This document shows positions 96-22,538 of a stretch of DNA of 64,000 bases, one piece after another (the stretch's first letter is position 1; each line of letters starts with the position of its first letter). The DNA is taken from assembly GCA_025998675.1 (NCBI GenBank), contig AP024673.1, positions 2,116,562 through 2,180,561 on the forward strand, written 5' to 3'. The notes under the pieces were generated by a model, which was not told where the DNA came from, ran no database searches, and saw nothing but the letters and a program-made list of their open reading frames with translations. Made by a program: the position numbers and the translations under genes. The stretch is from Fimbriimonadales bacterium (lineage in GTDB: Bacteria > Armatimonadota > Fimbriimonadia > Fimbriimonadales > GBS-DC).

Positions 96-386
96 ATGAT
101 GTCGCCGATTGACCTGCTAATCCTGGCGCTGCGTGCGATTGTGATTATCCTCGTGATTAATGTGGTCTTCTCGTGGATTCGTTTCGCGGGCGGGCGCGTG
201 CCGCGCTACAACCCCGTCGTGCGCTTCATCGACCGCATCAGCGACGCCATCCTCGAACCCATCCGTCAGGTGCAGAACCGCCTGCTGCGCAGCGCAGGCA
301 TGGGCTACATGCCCATCGACTTCTCGCCCCTGATTGCGATTATCTTCATCCAGTTCCTCATCTACCTGCTGGCGGGGTTTCGATGA
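96..386 (+). CDS. YggT/YlmG family integral membrane protein
   Basis: A 96-residue protein with two hydrophobic stretches (about residues 6-26 and 76-94) separated by a basic loop containing NPVVRFIDRISDAILEPIR. That is the hallmark of one YggT repeat: a hydrophobic helix, a conserved P-V-x-x-x-x-x-x-x-D-P/E-P-I-R segment, and a second helix. YggT/YlmG proteins sit in the cytoplasmic membrane and are linked to division and nucleoid or membrane organisation; no enzymatic role is established. A purine-rich ribosome site lies at 85-93, so the ATG at 99 is better spaced than the one at 96. The stop overlaps the divIVA start (ATGA), so the two genes are translationally coupled. Confidence 0.9.
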   Translation: MMSPIDLLILALRAIVIILVINVVFSWIRFAGGRVPRYNPVVRFIDRISDAILEPIRQVQNRLLRSAGMGYMPIDFSPLIAIIFIQFLIYLLAGFR

Positions 387-937
387 ACGAGCCGAGACGA
401 CTCACGGTGCTGGAGATAGAGACCAAAAAGTTCCGCAGGCGATTGCGGGGCTATGACCCGACGGCGGTGGAGGCGTTTCTGCAGGAGGTCGCCGCGCACT
501 ACGAGGAGGTGCTGACCGAGAACCATCGCCTGCGCGAGGAGGTCGTCGGGCTGCGCCAGGAAGCGGAACGCTCCCGCGCGATGGAAGACGCGCTCAAGGA
601 GTCGCTGGTGCTGGCGCAGCGCAGCGCGGACGAAACGCGCAGCAACGCCCATAAGGAGGCGGAACTCATCCTGCAGGAGGCGCGCCTCAAAGCGGAGCAA
701 CTCGTGCGCGAGGCAGAGACGCGCGCCCAGCGCATCCTCGCCGAGACCGAAACGCTGGAGGCGCGCAAACGCGCGATCGTGATGGAACTGCGCGGGCTGC
801 TGCTGGCGCACCTGCATGCGCTGGACGGCGCATCCACCGAGCCGCCTCAGACAGTCGCGCTCGCCGAGACCGCCGCGCCCACCGACAACGGCGCGCCCGA
901 GACCGCGCCCGACGCCAGCGCGTCCCAGAACCCTTAG
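383..937 (+). CDS. divIVA: DivIVA domain cell-division/polarity protein
   Basis: A 184-residue protein. Residues about 5-50 are a DivIVA lipid-binding domain (TVLEIETKKFRRRLRGYDP followed by AVEAFLQEV), with the GYD motif and the VxxFL helix. Residues 50-150 form an uninterrupted, Glu/Arg/Ala-rich coiled coil. The C-terminal 30 residues are Pro/Ala/Thr-rich and probably disordered. The family oligomerises at curved membranes and recruits division or polar-growth proteins. The start is the ATG overlapping the yggT stop; an upstream in-frame ATG at 173 would run antiparallel to sense inside yggT and is rejected. The stop codon lies inside the first copy of the TTAGCCACGCTAA palindrome. Confidence 0.9.
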   Translation: MNEPRRLTVLEIETKKFRRRLRGYDPTAVEAFLQEVAAHYEEVLTENHRLREEVVGLRQEAERSRAMEDALKESLVLAQRSADETRSNAHKEAELILQEARLKAEQLVREAETRAQRILAETETLEARKRAIVMELRGLLLAHLHALDGASTEPPQTVALAETAAPTDNGAPETAPDASASQNP

Positions 938-1336
938 CCACGCTAAACATCTGGCGAACCCCTCGCCAATCCACACCCCACAAACCCAAACCTCAAGCAT
1001 CACTTCAACTTCATACCCCAAAACCCTGAACTCAAACCACCTCAACTCCTTAGCCACGCTAAACTTCTGGCGAACCTCCACACCACTTGAACTTGAATCA
1101 AATATCTACTGACCTTCGCCAACTCGTTAGCCACGCTAACTATCTGAACTCAACACCCAAAACACACCCAAATAACCTCACACCACACCCCAAAATCTGA
1201 ACTCAAAAACACCCCAAAAACACACCCACACGCCAACCGCCAGAAAACCCAACAAAAGTGGCGAACCTCCCCCCAATTCGCACTTGAGTTCAAATCGAGT
1301 CGAGGTTCGCCACGGGCGTTGAGTTCAAATCGGGGG
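934..1336. repeat. non-coding block of decayed short repeats between divIVA and the CRISPR array
   Basis: About 400 bases without a credible gene and with marked strand asymmetry (mostly A and C on the plus strand up to about 1255). It holds three copies of the palindrome TTAGCCACGCTAA (934-946, 1050-1062, 1127-1139), the first two followed by a TCTGGCGAACC string. It also holds several CTGAACTCAA boxes, a direct repeat TTGAGTTCAAATCG (1284-1297 and 1319-1332), and an inverted pair GTGGCGAACCT (1258-1268) / AGGTTCGCCAC (1303-1313). The palindrome plus TTGAGTTCA combination recurs in the presumed origin region near 22345-22404. Function is unknown; clustered protein-binding sites are one possibility. 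Confidence 0.6.
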
Positions 1337-1364
1337 GTCAATTGTTAAGAAGCGCGCGCAGGAC

Positions 1365-1396
1365 TTGACAAAGGGGGGGATGAGGTAGACTATACC
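1365..1396 (+). promoter_or_regulatory. probable CRISPR leader promoter
   Basis: A consensus TTGACA at 1365-1370 is followed by GACTAT at 1388-1393 (17-base spacer) and an overlapping TATACC at 1391-1396, directly before the first CRISPR repeat. Transcription would read rightwards into the array, consistent with the repeat ending in ATTGAAAC at its right side. Confidence 0.5.
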
Positions 1397-1593
1397 GTAG
1401 CATTCACCCCCAAGGGTGGGTGCTAATTGAAACGGGCCTCTTCAAGAACAGCCCAGGCCCCGCCTGGCACCTTGGTGTAGCATTCACCCCCAAGGGGGTG
1501 CTAATTGAAACGAGTAGTAGTATATGCCGTCGGCGATTTCCAAATAACTGCTGCATGTAGCATTCACCCCCAAGGGTGGGTGCTAATTGAAAC
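1397..1593 (+). CRISPR. CRISPR mini-array, three repeats and two spacers, no cas genes nearby
   Basis: Repeats lie at 1397-1433 (37 nt), 1477-1511 (35 nt, lacking two bases in the central G/T tract) and 1557-1593 (37 nt). Each begins GTAGCATTCACCCCC and ends GGGTGCTAATTGAAAC; the ATTGAAAC 3' end is typical of type I and type III repeats. The core CACCCCCAAGGGTGGGTG is partly self-complementary, as expected for a crRNA hairpin. The spacers are 43 nt (1434-1476) and 45 nt (1512-1556). The sequence after 1593 could be a third spacer that lost its closing repeat. No cas gene is in the window, so this is an orphan or remnant array or is served from another locus. Confidence 0.85.
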
Positions 1594-7325: not shown

Positions 7326-7597
7326 TACCTGCGAATTGAGAAGGTGTCCCACTCCTGCGTCGCTTCGGCGTACTCTATATCCACCCGCTGTACCCGCGCG
7401 CCGATGGGTCCGCGGCGGAGCGTCTCTACAAAGCGGTGAAGCGTCCCTTCCTCTCCCTCAGCGACCACTTCCACCGTGCCATCCGTGCAGTTGCGCACAT
7501 AGCCACACAGCCCCAGACGCAGCGCCTCCGACTGGGCAAAGACCCTGTAGCCGACGCCCTGCACGAACCCATGCACGCGCGCGTGTATCCGCTTCAT
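7325..7597 (-). CDS. acyP: acylphosphatase
   Basis: A 90-residue protein, the usual length for acylphosphatase, which hydrolyses the carboxyl-phosphate bond of small acyl phosphates in the cytosol. The signature GFVQGVGYRVFAQSEALRLG carries the phosphate-binding loop and catalytic Arg. GYVRNCTDGTVEVVAEGEE carries the catalytic Asn. The start is ATG 7597, seven bases after TATAAT (minus strand 7610-7605), so the mRNA would be leaderless; an in-frame upstream GTG at 7633 lies upstream of that promoter. The stop overlaps the start of the next gene by one base. Confidence 0.93.
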   Translation of the reverse strand: MKRIHARVHGFVQGVGYRVFAQSEALRLGLCGYVRNCTDGTVEVVAEGEEGTLHRFVETLRRGPIGARVQRVDIEYAEATQEWDTFSIRR

Positions 7598-8038: not shown

Positions 8039-8953
8039 ATGCTCTCTCGGACACTGGTACTCAAGGTCGCGGAGCTTCCTGCATTCAAACACTGGATTAA
8101 GCACAGCCGCCTGACGCAGGGACTGATCAAACGTTTTATCGCGGGCGAAGATCTGGAAACCGCCCTTCGCATCACCCGCCAGTTGAATCAGGAGGGCTTC
8201 CTCGTCGCACTGGACTATCTGGGTGAAGATACTCATCGCATTGAAGACGCCGAATTCGCCGCTGAACAATACATTACCCTTCTGGAGCAAATACATAAAA
8301 GCGGCGTCAACTCTTGTATCTCTATTAAGCTCACCCAGCTGGGATTGGATCTGGGGCATGCGATAGCACATCGAAATCTCGAGAAAGTACTGGCGGCGGC
8401 GCGCGAACTGGACAACTTTGTCTGGGTGGATATGGAAAGCAGTAAACACACGCAGGCAATTCTGGATTTGTTCTGTGAGCTGTTCCCTCGCTATCCCAAC
8501 TCAGGCACGGTGCTGCAAAGCTATCTCTACCGAACCCCTGAAGACCTGGAACGCTTGCTAAACCTGGGTGCGCGTGTGCGATTGGTCAAAGGTGCGTATG
8601 CCGAACCGAAAGAAGTCGCCTACCCCGACAAACGGTCGGTTGACAGGCAGTTCAAAATTCAGATGGAGCAACTCCTTGAGCGAGGCAAAGAGCCTGCGAT
8701 TGCCACCCACGACGCGCGCCTGATTAGCCACGCCAAACACTACGCCTCAGAGCTGGGTTTAGGTAAGAGTCAGTTCGAATTCCAACTGCTCTACGGGATT
8801 AGCCGAGAGCTACAGAAACGGCTCGTGGCGGAGGGCTACCGCACGCTGATTTATGTCCCGTATGGCGAGCAGTGGTACCCCTACTTCTCCCGTCGCCTGG
8901 CGGAGCGCCCCGCGAATCTCTATTTCATTCTTCGGAGTCTGTTTCGGAAGTAG
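8039..8953 (+). CDS. proline dehydrogenase
   Basis: A 304-residue monofunctional proline dehydrogenase (FAD-dependent TIM barrel) that oxidises proline to pyrroline-5-carboxylate and passes electrons to the quinone pool. Family landmarks are SIKLTQLGLDLG, FVWVDMESSKHTQ, VLQSYLYRT, RLVKGAYAEP, PAIATHDARL and the C-terminal YVPYGEQWYPYFSRRLAERP; the last carries the Arg-Arg pair that binds the proline carboxylate. The length matches the stand-alone Thermus/Deinococcus type. The partner P5C dehydrogenase is not in the window. The 3' end overlaps the convergent isochorismatase-like gene by 29 bases. Confidence 0.93.
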   Translation: MLSRTLVLKVAELPAFKHWIKHSRLTQGLIKRFIAGEDLETALRITRQLNQEGFLVALDYLGEDTHRIEDAEFAAEQYITLLEQIHKSGVNSCISIKLTQLGLDLGHAIAHRNLEKVLAAARELDNFVWVDMESSKHTQAILDLFCELFPRYPNSGTVLQSYLYRTPEDLERLLNLGARVRLVKGAYAEPKEVAYPDKRSVDRQFKIQMEQLLERGKEPAIATHDARLISHAKHYASELGLGKSQFEFQLLYGISRELQKRLVAEGYRTLIYVPYGEQWYPYFSRRLAERPANLYFILRSLFRK

Positions 8954-21095: not shown

Positions 21096-22213
21096 GGGTG
21101 GGCATCGACGCGCGGTTGCTCACAGGCGCGTACACGGGCGATCGCACCTACTGGCGCGGGCTTCTCACGGCGTTCTCGCAGCTGCTGGATCCGAAGGCGC
21201 ATCGGCTGATTCTCTTTTCCACGCGCCTCATTCCCGACGGAACGCTGCCCGAATCGCCTCTTTACGAGCATGTTGTTGCGCCCGCGCGCTCCGATCGGCT
21301 CTGGAGCCTGTTTCAGCTGCCGAAGCTTGCCCGCACACACGGTTGCGACCTCGTACACACCCAGTATACGGTTTCGCCCTTTTTTCGCACACCAACCGTC
21401 ACGACCGTACATGACATCTCGTTTCTGATAGAGCCGCGCTGGTTTCCGCTGAAGGACAGGATTCTGCTGCGCCTGACTGTGCCCGCCTCGTGTCGCCGCG
21501 CGCGGCGCGTGTTGACCGTCTCGGAAACCTCGCGCGAGGACATCATCGAGAGGCTGGGCTTGCCCCCTGAGAAGGTGGTCGCCACGCCCAACGGTTTGCC
21601 TGAGGGATTCCACCCGATTCCGAAGGCAGAAGCGCAGGCATGGGCGCGTGAACGGTACGGCATTCAGTCGCCCTTTGCGCTGGCAGTGGGCGTGCTTCAG
21701 CCGCGCAAGAACTGGCAGCTCGCGATACAGGCGGTCGCTCTGGCGCGCGAGCAATACGAGCTGCCGCTCACGCTCGTGCTGACCGGCAAAGCGGGCTGGG
21801 CGCGCCGCTTGCTGGATCATGCCAAACGAGTGTGGGTTCAGGGCGACTGGCTGATAGAGACGGGCTATGTGCCCGACGAACATCTGGTGTGGCTCTACAA
21901 CGCGGCGGAGGTAATGCTCTACCCTTCCTTCTACGAGGGTTTCGGATTGCCGCCGCTGGAAGCGATGGCGTGCGGGACGCCCGTGATTGCCTCCAACGGC
22001 GGCGCACTGCCCGAAGTGGTCGGTTCTGGAGGAATCTTGCTCCCTCCCGACCAGCCCGGCATGTGGGCGAACGCCATCCGCACTCTCCTTGCCAGCGACG
22101 CCTACCGCAACGCCCTCACCGAACAGGCGCTCACGCAGGCGAAACGCTTCTCCTGGCGCACCACCGCTGAGCGCACCTGGCAGGCATATCAGCAGGCGGT
22201 GAATTGTGGATAA
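21092..22213 (+). CDS. glycosyltransferase family 1 (GT4-type fold)
   Basis: A 373-residue GT-B glycosyltransferase. The N-terminal half holds [23 protein letters not shown] and [14 protein letters not shown], then [15 protein letters not shown]. The C-terminal half has [16 protein letters not shown], the nucleotide-sugar motif [26 protein letters not shown] (E-x7-E type, with Glu in [10 protein letters not shown]), and LPEVVGSGG. It most resembles mannosyl- or rhamnosyltransferases of cell-surface glycans; the substrate is unknown. The start is GTG 21092 overlapping the rsmG stop. The last codons form part of the first DnaA box (22205-22213). Confidence 0.9.
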
Positions 22214-22538
22214 CTCGCCTGTGAATTGTGGAAAACTCTGTGGATAACCCTGTGGAAAACCCCGAATCGCCCCGTTTTCCACAGAGTTATCCACAGTGGA
22301 TCCACAGTTTTCCACAGAGTTTTCCACATCGAAACCCCCGATGTTTAGCGTGGCTAATTAAACACTCAGTCAGTAGACAAAAGTTGCAATTTGAGTTCAG
22401 AATCGCCCTCTGAAACCCCTGAAATTCGTCGACCGCGCGGTCGAAGTAGACAAAGTTATCCACAATTCCACAATGACCTACTACTACCATGGATTCTCTA
22501 TATGTATAGGGGCATGGGAATTAGTTGCGTGTGGAAAA
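22205..22538. other. oriC: probable chromosomal replication origin (DnaA-box cluster)
   Basis: Four perfect TTATCCACA boxes: 22205-22213 (reverse), 22239-22247 (reverse), 22287-22295 and 22456-22464. Six TTTTCCACA boxes: 22227-22235 and 22251-22259 (reverse), 22275-22283, 22308-22316, 22320-22328, and 22530-22538 (reverse). The main cluster switches orientation at about 22265. To its right lies a relatively A/T-rich stretch (about 22340-22395, with CTAATTAAAC) that could unwind. Nearby rsmG, parA and parB agree with an origin. dnaA and dnaN are not in the window, and carB is the right neighbour. Confidence 0.82.
22345..22357 (-). repeat. TTAGCCACGCTAA palindrome, fourth copy, in the origin region
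   Basis: On the minus strand the sequence reads TTAGCCACGCTAAACATC, an 18-base match to the copy at 934-951. A TTTGAGTTCAGAATCG string at about 22389-22404 parallels the TTGAGTTCAAATCG repeats at 1284 and 1319. This is the only copy seen outside the 0.9-1.1 kb block. Confidence 0.6.

Follow-up and report, generated by a model that had tools for sequence, protein, structure and literature searches.

The 64,000-bp window analysed here (the whole stretch of DNA, genome positions 2116562-2180561) carries a divIVA gene near its start (383..937, plus strand; PF05103, E=1.4e-35), followed on the same strand by three exact copies of a 13-mer palindrome, TTAGCCACGCTAA. The first copy (934..946) overlaps the divIVA stop codon, the second (1050..1062) lies 116 bp past it and the third (1127..1139) a further 77 bp on; a fourth exact copy occupies 22345..22357 on the minus strand. 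Each is an interrupted inverted repeat, TTAGC-CAC-GCTAA, with 5-bp arms around a 3-bp centre. The first-pass annotation had placed all four copies correctly and described the first three as a divIVA-flanking array. Three copies do follow divIVA, but the array is a CRISPR leader (934..1396, plus strand) of which divIVA is a mere neighbour. The stretch lies directly upstream of the first CRISPR repeat, opposite the ATTGAAAC repeat end, and is conserved among arrays of the same type. Repeat 1 (GTAGCATTCACCCCCAAGGGTGGGTGCTAATTGAAAC) is found at 1397..1433, repeat 2, which is 2 nt shorter, at 1477..1511, and repeat 3 at 1557..1593, all on the plus strand. Downstream of the three sites, the leader holds two plus-strand copies of the box TTGAGTTCAAA (1284..1294 and 1319..1329, 35 bp apart) and a probable array promoter, TTGACA - 17 bp - GACTAT (1365..1393, plus strand, within TAGACTATACC), which is conserved in the leader alignment. 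The TTGAGTTCA-type boxes noticed earlier near both places are indeed there, as these two copies and as TTGAGTTCAGA at 22391. Boxes of the TTGAGTTCAAA form belong to the leader: 12 of the 13 genomic copies are pairs 35 bp apart in six CRISPR leaders. Inverted repeats of the GCGAACCTCC / GGAGGTTCGC type also surround TTGA(A/G)(C/T)TCAA boxes twice in the leader (window 1068-1122 and 1259-1312), and their arms appear to co-vary between leaders, TGCGCGAACC or TGGCGAACC each occurring with a matching partner.

Within the window, the exact 13-mer is confined to these two non-coding places, as first reported, and a one-mismatch copy at 8724 lies within a longer ORF. The restriction does not hold genome-wide: the genome (one contig of 2,987,958 bp) has 21 exact copies, and the pattern TTAGCNNNGCTAA matches at 27 places, all with the centre (C/T)A(C/T) on one strand. 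The claim that such recurrence is unlikely by chance was borne out. Allowing up to two mismatches, the window contains 5 matches against 0.57 expected, a number reached in 0 of 100 shuffles. The 21 exact genomic copies compare with about 0.03 expected from dinucleotide composition, and a reversed control pattern gave 0 matches genome-wide. Counting and mapping of both the 13-mer and the box over the genome likewise showed that their distribution is not random. Exact copies are present in 17 of 18 genomes of the family (3-21 each) versus 1 of 43 genomes in other families of the order; the large family f3 lacks the 13-mer except for one copy in one genome.

Much of this recurrence comes from clusters. 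Counting exact and one-mismatch copies, three-site clusters with identical 116 / 77 bp spacing occur at 153k, 739k, 2117k (the window), 2399k and 2714k; the cluster at 1875k has two sites, 77 bp apart. After every one of the six clusters, GTAGCATTCACCCCCAAGGGTGGGTGCTAATTGAAAC repeats begin 375-467 bp from the first site, and the leader thus exists in six paralogous copies. The non-random, palindromic form of the motif is of the type that a protein would bind, as had been proposed. The proposed link to division is not supported, because divIVA only neighbours one of six dispersed CRISPR arrays. The 739k cluster comes after cas1-cas2, with its first site about 20 bp past the cas2 stop, and this is the only Cas1 gene found in the genome; a type III-B Cmr module (Cas10/Cmr2, Cmr5, RAMPs) is located at about 1.2 Mb. 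None of the cas promoters of this genome has a 13-mer site. The remaining arrays have no adjoining cas1 and are neighboured by unrelated genes, such as divIVA in the window; they look as though they had spread together with their leader. In another genus, L322 (G014) carries a different CRISPR type with the repeat GTTTTTAGCCTACCTGTGAGGGATTGAAAC, and its leader has TGAGTTCA boxes and no operator site.

The single copies of the 13-mer are putative operators of an Fe–S/iron regulon. Directly downstream of them lie genes for a SufBD-core protein (sufD-like), sufC-sufB, Mrp/ApbC and a Rieske protein followed by sufS and sufU, as well as cysK (a cysteine-synthase-like PALP enzyme), FeoB, an ABM-domain protein and DUF1028. 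One site is upstream of an actA-like multihaem cytochrome gene (alternative complex III), whose G017 homologue matches cytochrome c7, and one-mismatch sites precede genes for a fasciclin protein and a MarR-family protein. In relatives, too, the 13-mer is found at these promoters and genes. Among 137 unique contexts, a -10 hexamer ends 0-1 nt before the site in 63, the site falls within the -35/-10 spacer in 22 (feoB, ABM), and no -10-like hexamer is nearby in 34, the leader copies included. In distant genera the arms are kept and the centre is altered, at feoB and sufS in G015 and at feoB, cysK and actA in G017, which fits how the operator of a dimer would behave. Three further observations concern these loci. 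Ahead of the actA-like gene, the operator is directly adjoined by an FNR/CRP-like palindrome, TTGTGATAAAATGCACAA (L037, about 7345-7380), which is conserved in relatives (L073, L085 and L090). The sufC-sufB genes and their operator lie within a few kb of the type III-B Cmr operon (L032, L246; genome about 1.197-1.208 Mb). In one related genus, an operator is found upstream of a sulfurtransferase (rhodanese-like) gene (L161 of G016, 1540), and sulfur metabolism would then be part of the regulon too.

The single copies bear on two broader readings of the motif. A dedicated chromosome-organising protein, as suggested by the first-pass annotation, is unlikely given that most unlinked copies appear to be core-promoter operators of Fe–S, iron and cysteine genes; on the same ground, we rejected a chromosome-organising or division protein as the main reading. 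The 13-mer could also be the remnant of a dispersed mobile repeat, in keeping with multi-site clusters at six places in the genome. Such a repeat accounts for the repeated leaders but not for the promoter copies: the clusters are CRISPR leaders, and the single copies have flanks unrelated to one another and are placed exactly at promoters. We therefore rejected this explanation, whose probability we regard as practically nil.

The leader sites are conserved beyond this genome. Within the genus, several genomes have leaders with two or three sites, the usual arrangement being a pair 77-78 bp apart. When 16 leaders from six genomes (G000, G004, G007, G008, G010 and G012) were aligned, none of the 20 columns in the arms of the inner site pair varied, whereas 37 of the 94 remaining columns were invariant (Fisher p=2.5e-7). 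These leaders had been selected by a pattern that requires the arms, and the test therefore does not give an unbiased rate; what it shows is that the sites occur together at a fixed distance while the sequence around them diverges. A homologous cas1-cas2 locus in the sister genus, G013, has a short leader without an operator site, and the CRISPR link is therefore not ancestral. This wiring arose in, or survived only in, one genus, and the suf operators and the oriC site are older. Because the leader sites lie clear of the probable array promoter, they have no obvious direct effect on transcription; nor does any promoter adjoin them. Could the motif be an operator of the Fe–S regulon whose leader copies are passive passengers, present by chance in an ancestral leader and copied along with the array? 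The six G000 leaders are paralogues, 85-95% identical to that of the window, and the absence of sites from the sister genus and of a promoter beside the leader sites agrees with this explanation. Across genomes, however, leaders are only about 70-75% identical, yet the inner arms have stayed invariant and the spacing has been held at 77-78 bp, and we judge passive carriage to be quite unlikely.

The fourth window copy lies in a region (22205..22538) with a cluster of 10 DnaA-box-like nonamers (TTNTCCACA). Homologous DnaA-box regions were found in 15 of the 18 family genomes. GC skew is too weak in this genome to place the origin, and synteny was used instead: because homologous regions in other genera adjoin dnaA (L266, G017) or a RecF/SMC-type gene (L269, G014), the window region is very probably oriC, and the earlier suggestion that the motif is shared with a true origin agrees with this. 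The minus-strand site is conserved in 11 of 11 genus origins recovered, all of which contain TTAGC(C/T)A(C/T)GCTAA. Outside the genus, it is exact in G014, has a changed centre in G013 and one arm change in G017, and is degenerate in G016. No promoter adjoins it. It is preceded by a block, TTGAACTCA ... TTTGTCTAC (22373..22399, minus strand), that resembles the block before leader site 3; common to leader and oriC are TTGAACTCAAA, then TTTGTCTAC, then the operator 15-17 bp on. Elsewhere in oriC, a perfect 16-bp palindrome, TCGACCGCGCGGTCGA (window 22429-22444), sits between a TTGAGTTCA box and a DnaA box and is (nearly) conserved in the genus.

This shared block, with its similar spacing in both settings, and the distance of the leader sites from the array promoter would suit a mainly architectural binder. 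IHF has a role in CRISPR adaptation, and an IHF-like protein might help spacers to integrate at leaders and DnaA to load at oriC, the promoter copies being secondary. Against this stand the rigid promoter geometry and its tie to one pathway, the presence of promoter copies in more genera than leader copies, and a copy number that is low for a nucleoid protein. We consider an architectural role of this kind unlikely, and return to a regulator of Fe–S and iron genes.

The best candidate for the protein that binds the 13-mer is a 189-aa MarR-family protein with four C-terminal cysteines, here called MarR-Cys, whose gene lies outside the window (genome 2973092-2973658; PF01047, E=9.2e-17). It has a MarR winged helix-turn-helix (wHTH) domain, and AlphaFold2 predicts a MarR fold with a pLDDT of 86 (about 70-80 in the cysteine tail), for which the best Foldseek matches are MarR-family structures. 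A one-mismatch site, TTAGCCACGCTAT, precedes the gene at 2973693. Upstream regions of the gene contain TTAGCCACGCTA(A/T/C) in 12 of 17 genomes, and no clear site was seen there in G003, G004, G014, G015 and G016; the palindrome at its own promoter makes MarR-Cys a candidate for autoregulation. All 18 family genomes carry the gene and it also occurs in further families of the order, but at the search threshold no homologue was found in the large family f3. The C-terminus reads C-L-x-C-G...D-P-x-C-P...C-R. Of 25 homologues, 23 retain the four cysteines (families f1, f2, f4 and most of f5), and the two without them, from G021 and G027, are among the most distant. Conserved cysteines able to ligate a cluster, together with an operator at suf and iron promoters, are what is expected of an Fe–S-sensing regulator, and the cysteines of MarR-Cys probably ligate an Fe–S cluster or iron. 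A PF01325 match that suggested a DtxR-type regulator proved to be the MarR-Cys protein itself, which scores far better as MarR.

Another regulator could bind the 13-mer. The genome has one clear Rrf2 gene (IscR-like, at 653331) and two FUR matches, of which the one at 2349109 is clear, and both families control iron or Fe–S genes elsewhere. On the genome-wide map, no 13-mer lies near the single Rrf2 match or either FUR match, so neither has the upstream site that the MarR-Cys gene has in most genomes, and the half-site agrees with MarR/SlyA usage. We hold it to be improbable that Rrf2 or FUR is the binder.

Sequence comparison shows the motif, the regulon, the promoter geometry, the candidate autoregulation and the conservation in leaders and oriC. 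From these we infer that MarR-Cys binds the 13-mer, that it carries an Fe–S cluster, in which direction it regulates and what it may do to CRISPR or replication. It is likely, in our view, that an autoregulated Fe–S/iron repressor of MarR/SlyA type with the operator TTAGC-N3-GCTAA also occupies CRISPR leaders and oriC. Such a repressor would control Fe–S assembly (suf, mrp), cysteine and iron-uptake genes from core promoter elements, and in one genus the CRISPR leader would have acquired two or three copies of its operator with a set spacing; a copy also lies in oriC. When cells are Fe–S-replete, repressor dimers may sit on suf-type promoters and leader sites; it would be the holo protein that represses, the position of sites on core promoters favouring repression. 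Multiple dimers on the leader, 260-460 bp upstream of the first repeat, could assemble into a nucleoprotein complex and so damp transcription of the array or the integration of spacers. Iron or oxidative stress would then cause cluster loss and release, and CRISPR activity would rise with Fe–S stress. The weakest step is the sign of the CRISPR effect, where repression and an activating or integration role are about evenly balanced. That one MarR-family Fe–S sensor gates, through the same operator, Fe–S biogenesis, CRISPR memory at the level of array expression or spacer uptake, and replication initiation at oriC is an idea that we put forward only tentatively.

The timing of CRISPR array switch-on in nature is largely open. 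Because the 13-mer of Fe–S promoters also occurs in CRISPR leaders and oriC, our data suggest that virus memory, and perhaps replication, may answer to the iron–sulfur state of the cell. In one genome, every one of the six array leaders has candidate operators of a metabolic regulator, which are kept in the genus and offer a testable link from iron–sulfur state to adaptive immunity, possibly extending via the oriC site to replication initiation. MarR-Cys, with its MarR fold and four C-terminal cysteines, and its regulon would represent a candidate new type of Fe–S regulator in Armatimonadota. A search of open-licence papers returned none that links a regulator or operator of Fe–S biogenesis to CRISPR leaders or oriC, and none that deals with CRISPR in genomes of hot-spring Fimbriimonadales, a habitat suggested by the isolate names of several relatives.

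Both wHTH Fe–S repressors (SufR, ArnR) and regulators acting on CRISPR (H-NS/LeuO, Csa3a, Fnr at cas3) are already known. SufR is a winged-helix suf repressor (PMC6034842), and ArnR binds [4Fe-4S] with a wHTH that resembles MarR/ArsR (PMC12343034). MarR-Cys resembles both in combining a wHTH DNA-binding domain with C-terminal cysteines, but differs in its candidate operator and in the CRISPR-leader and oriC sites; whereas ArnR has three conserved cysteines, MarR-Cys has a canonical MarR fold and Pfam match and four cysteines in C-x2-CG...CP...C. SlyA, a MarR-family protein, has the consensus palindrome TTAGCAAGCTAA (PMC5797941) and responds to iron status via aromatic ligands (PMC12506092). 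SlyA/RovA of enteric bacteria thus share the family and the TTAGC/GCTAA arms with the system described here; the 13-mer has one base more in its centre than TTAGCAAGCTAA, and the C-terminal cysteine motif and the Fe–S assembly regulon set the present candidate apart. As for CRISPR, the Fe–S protein Fnr activates type I-E CRISPR-Cas in Citrobacter rodentium according to oxygen state (PMC12669028). Fnr acts there from a site at the cas3 promoter, whereas here two or three sites lie in the array leader and none at a cas promoter, and the candidate regulator belongs to an unrelated family in a different phylum. Csa3a of Sulfolobus is a MarR-like factor linked to spacer acquisition (PMC4333418); its gene accompanies cas genes and its targets are the promoters of adaptation genes, in contrast to a housekeeping Fe–S regulator candidate with leader sites. 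H-NS and LeuO act on the E. coli CRISPR leader (reviewed in PMC10013973; for E. coli adaptation, see PMC10011333). Like them and IHF, the candidate here would be a DNA-binding protein at CRISPR leaders; unlike these general nucleoid factors, it would be a metabolite- or cluster-sensing regulator whose candidate operators are common to the leaders and a metabolic regulon.
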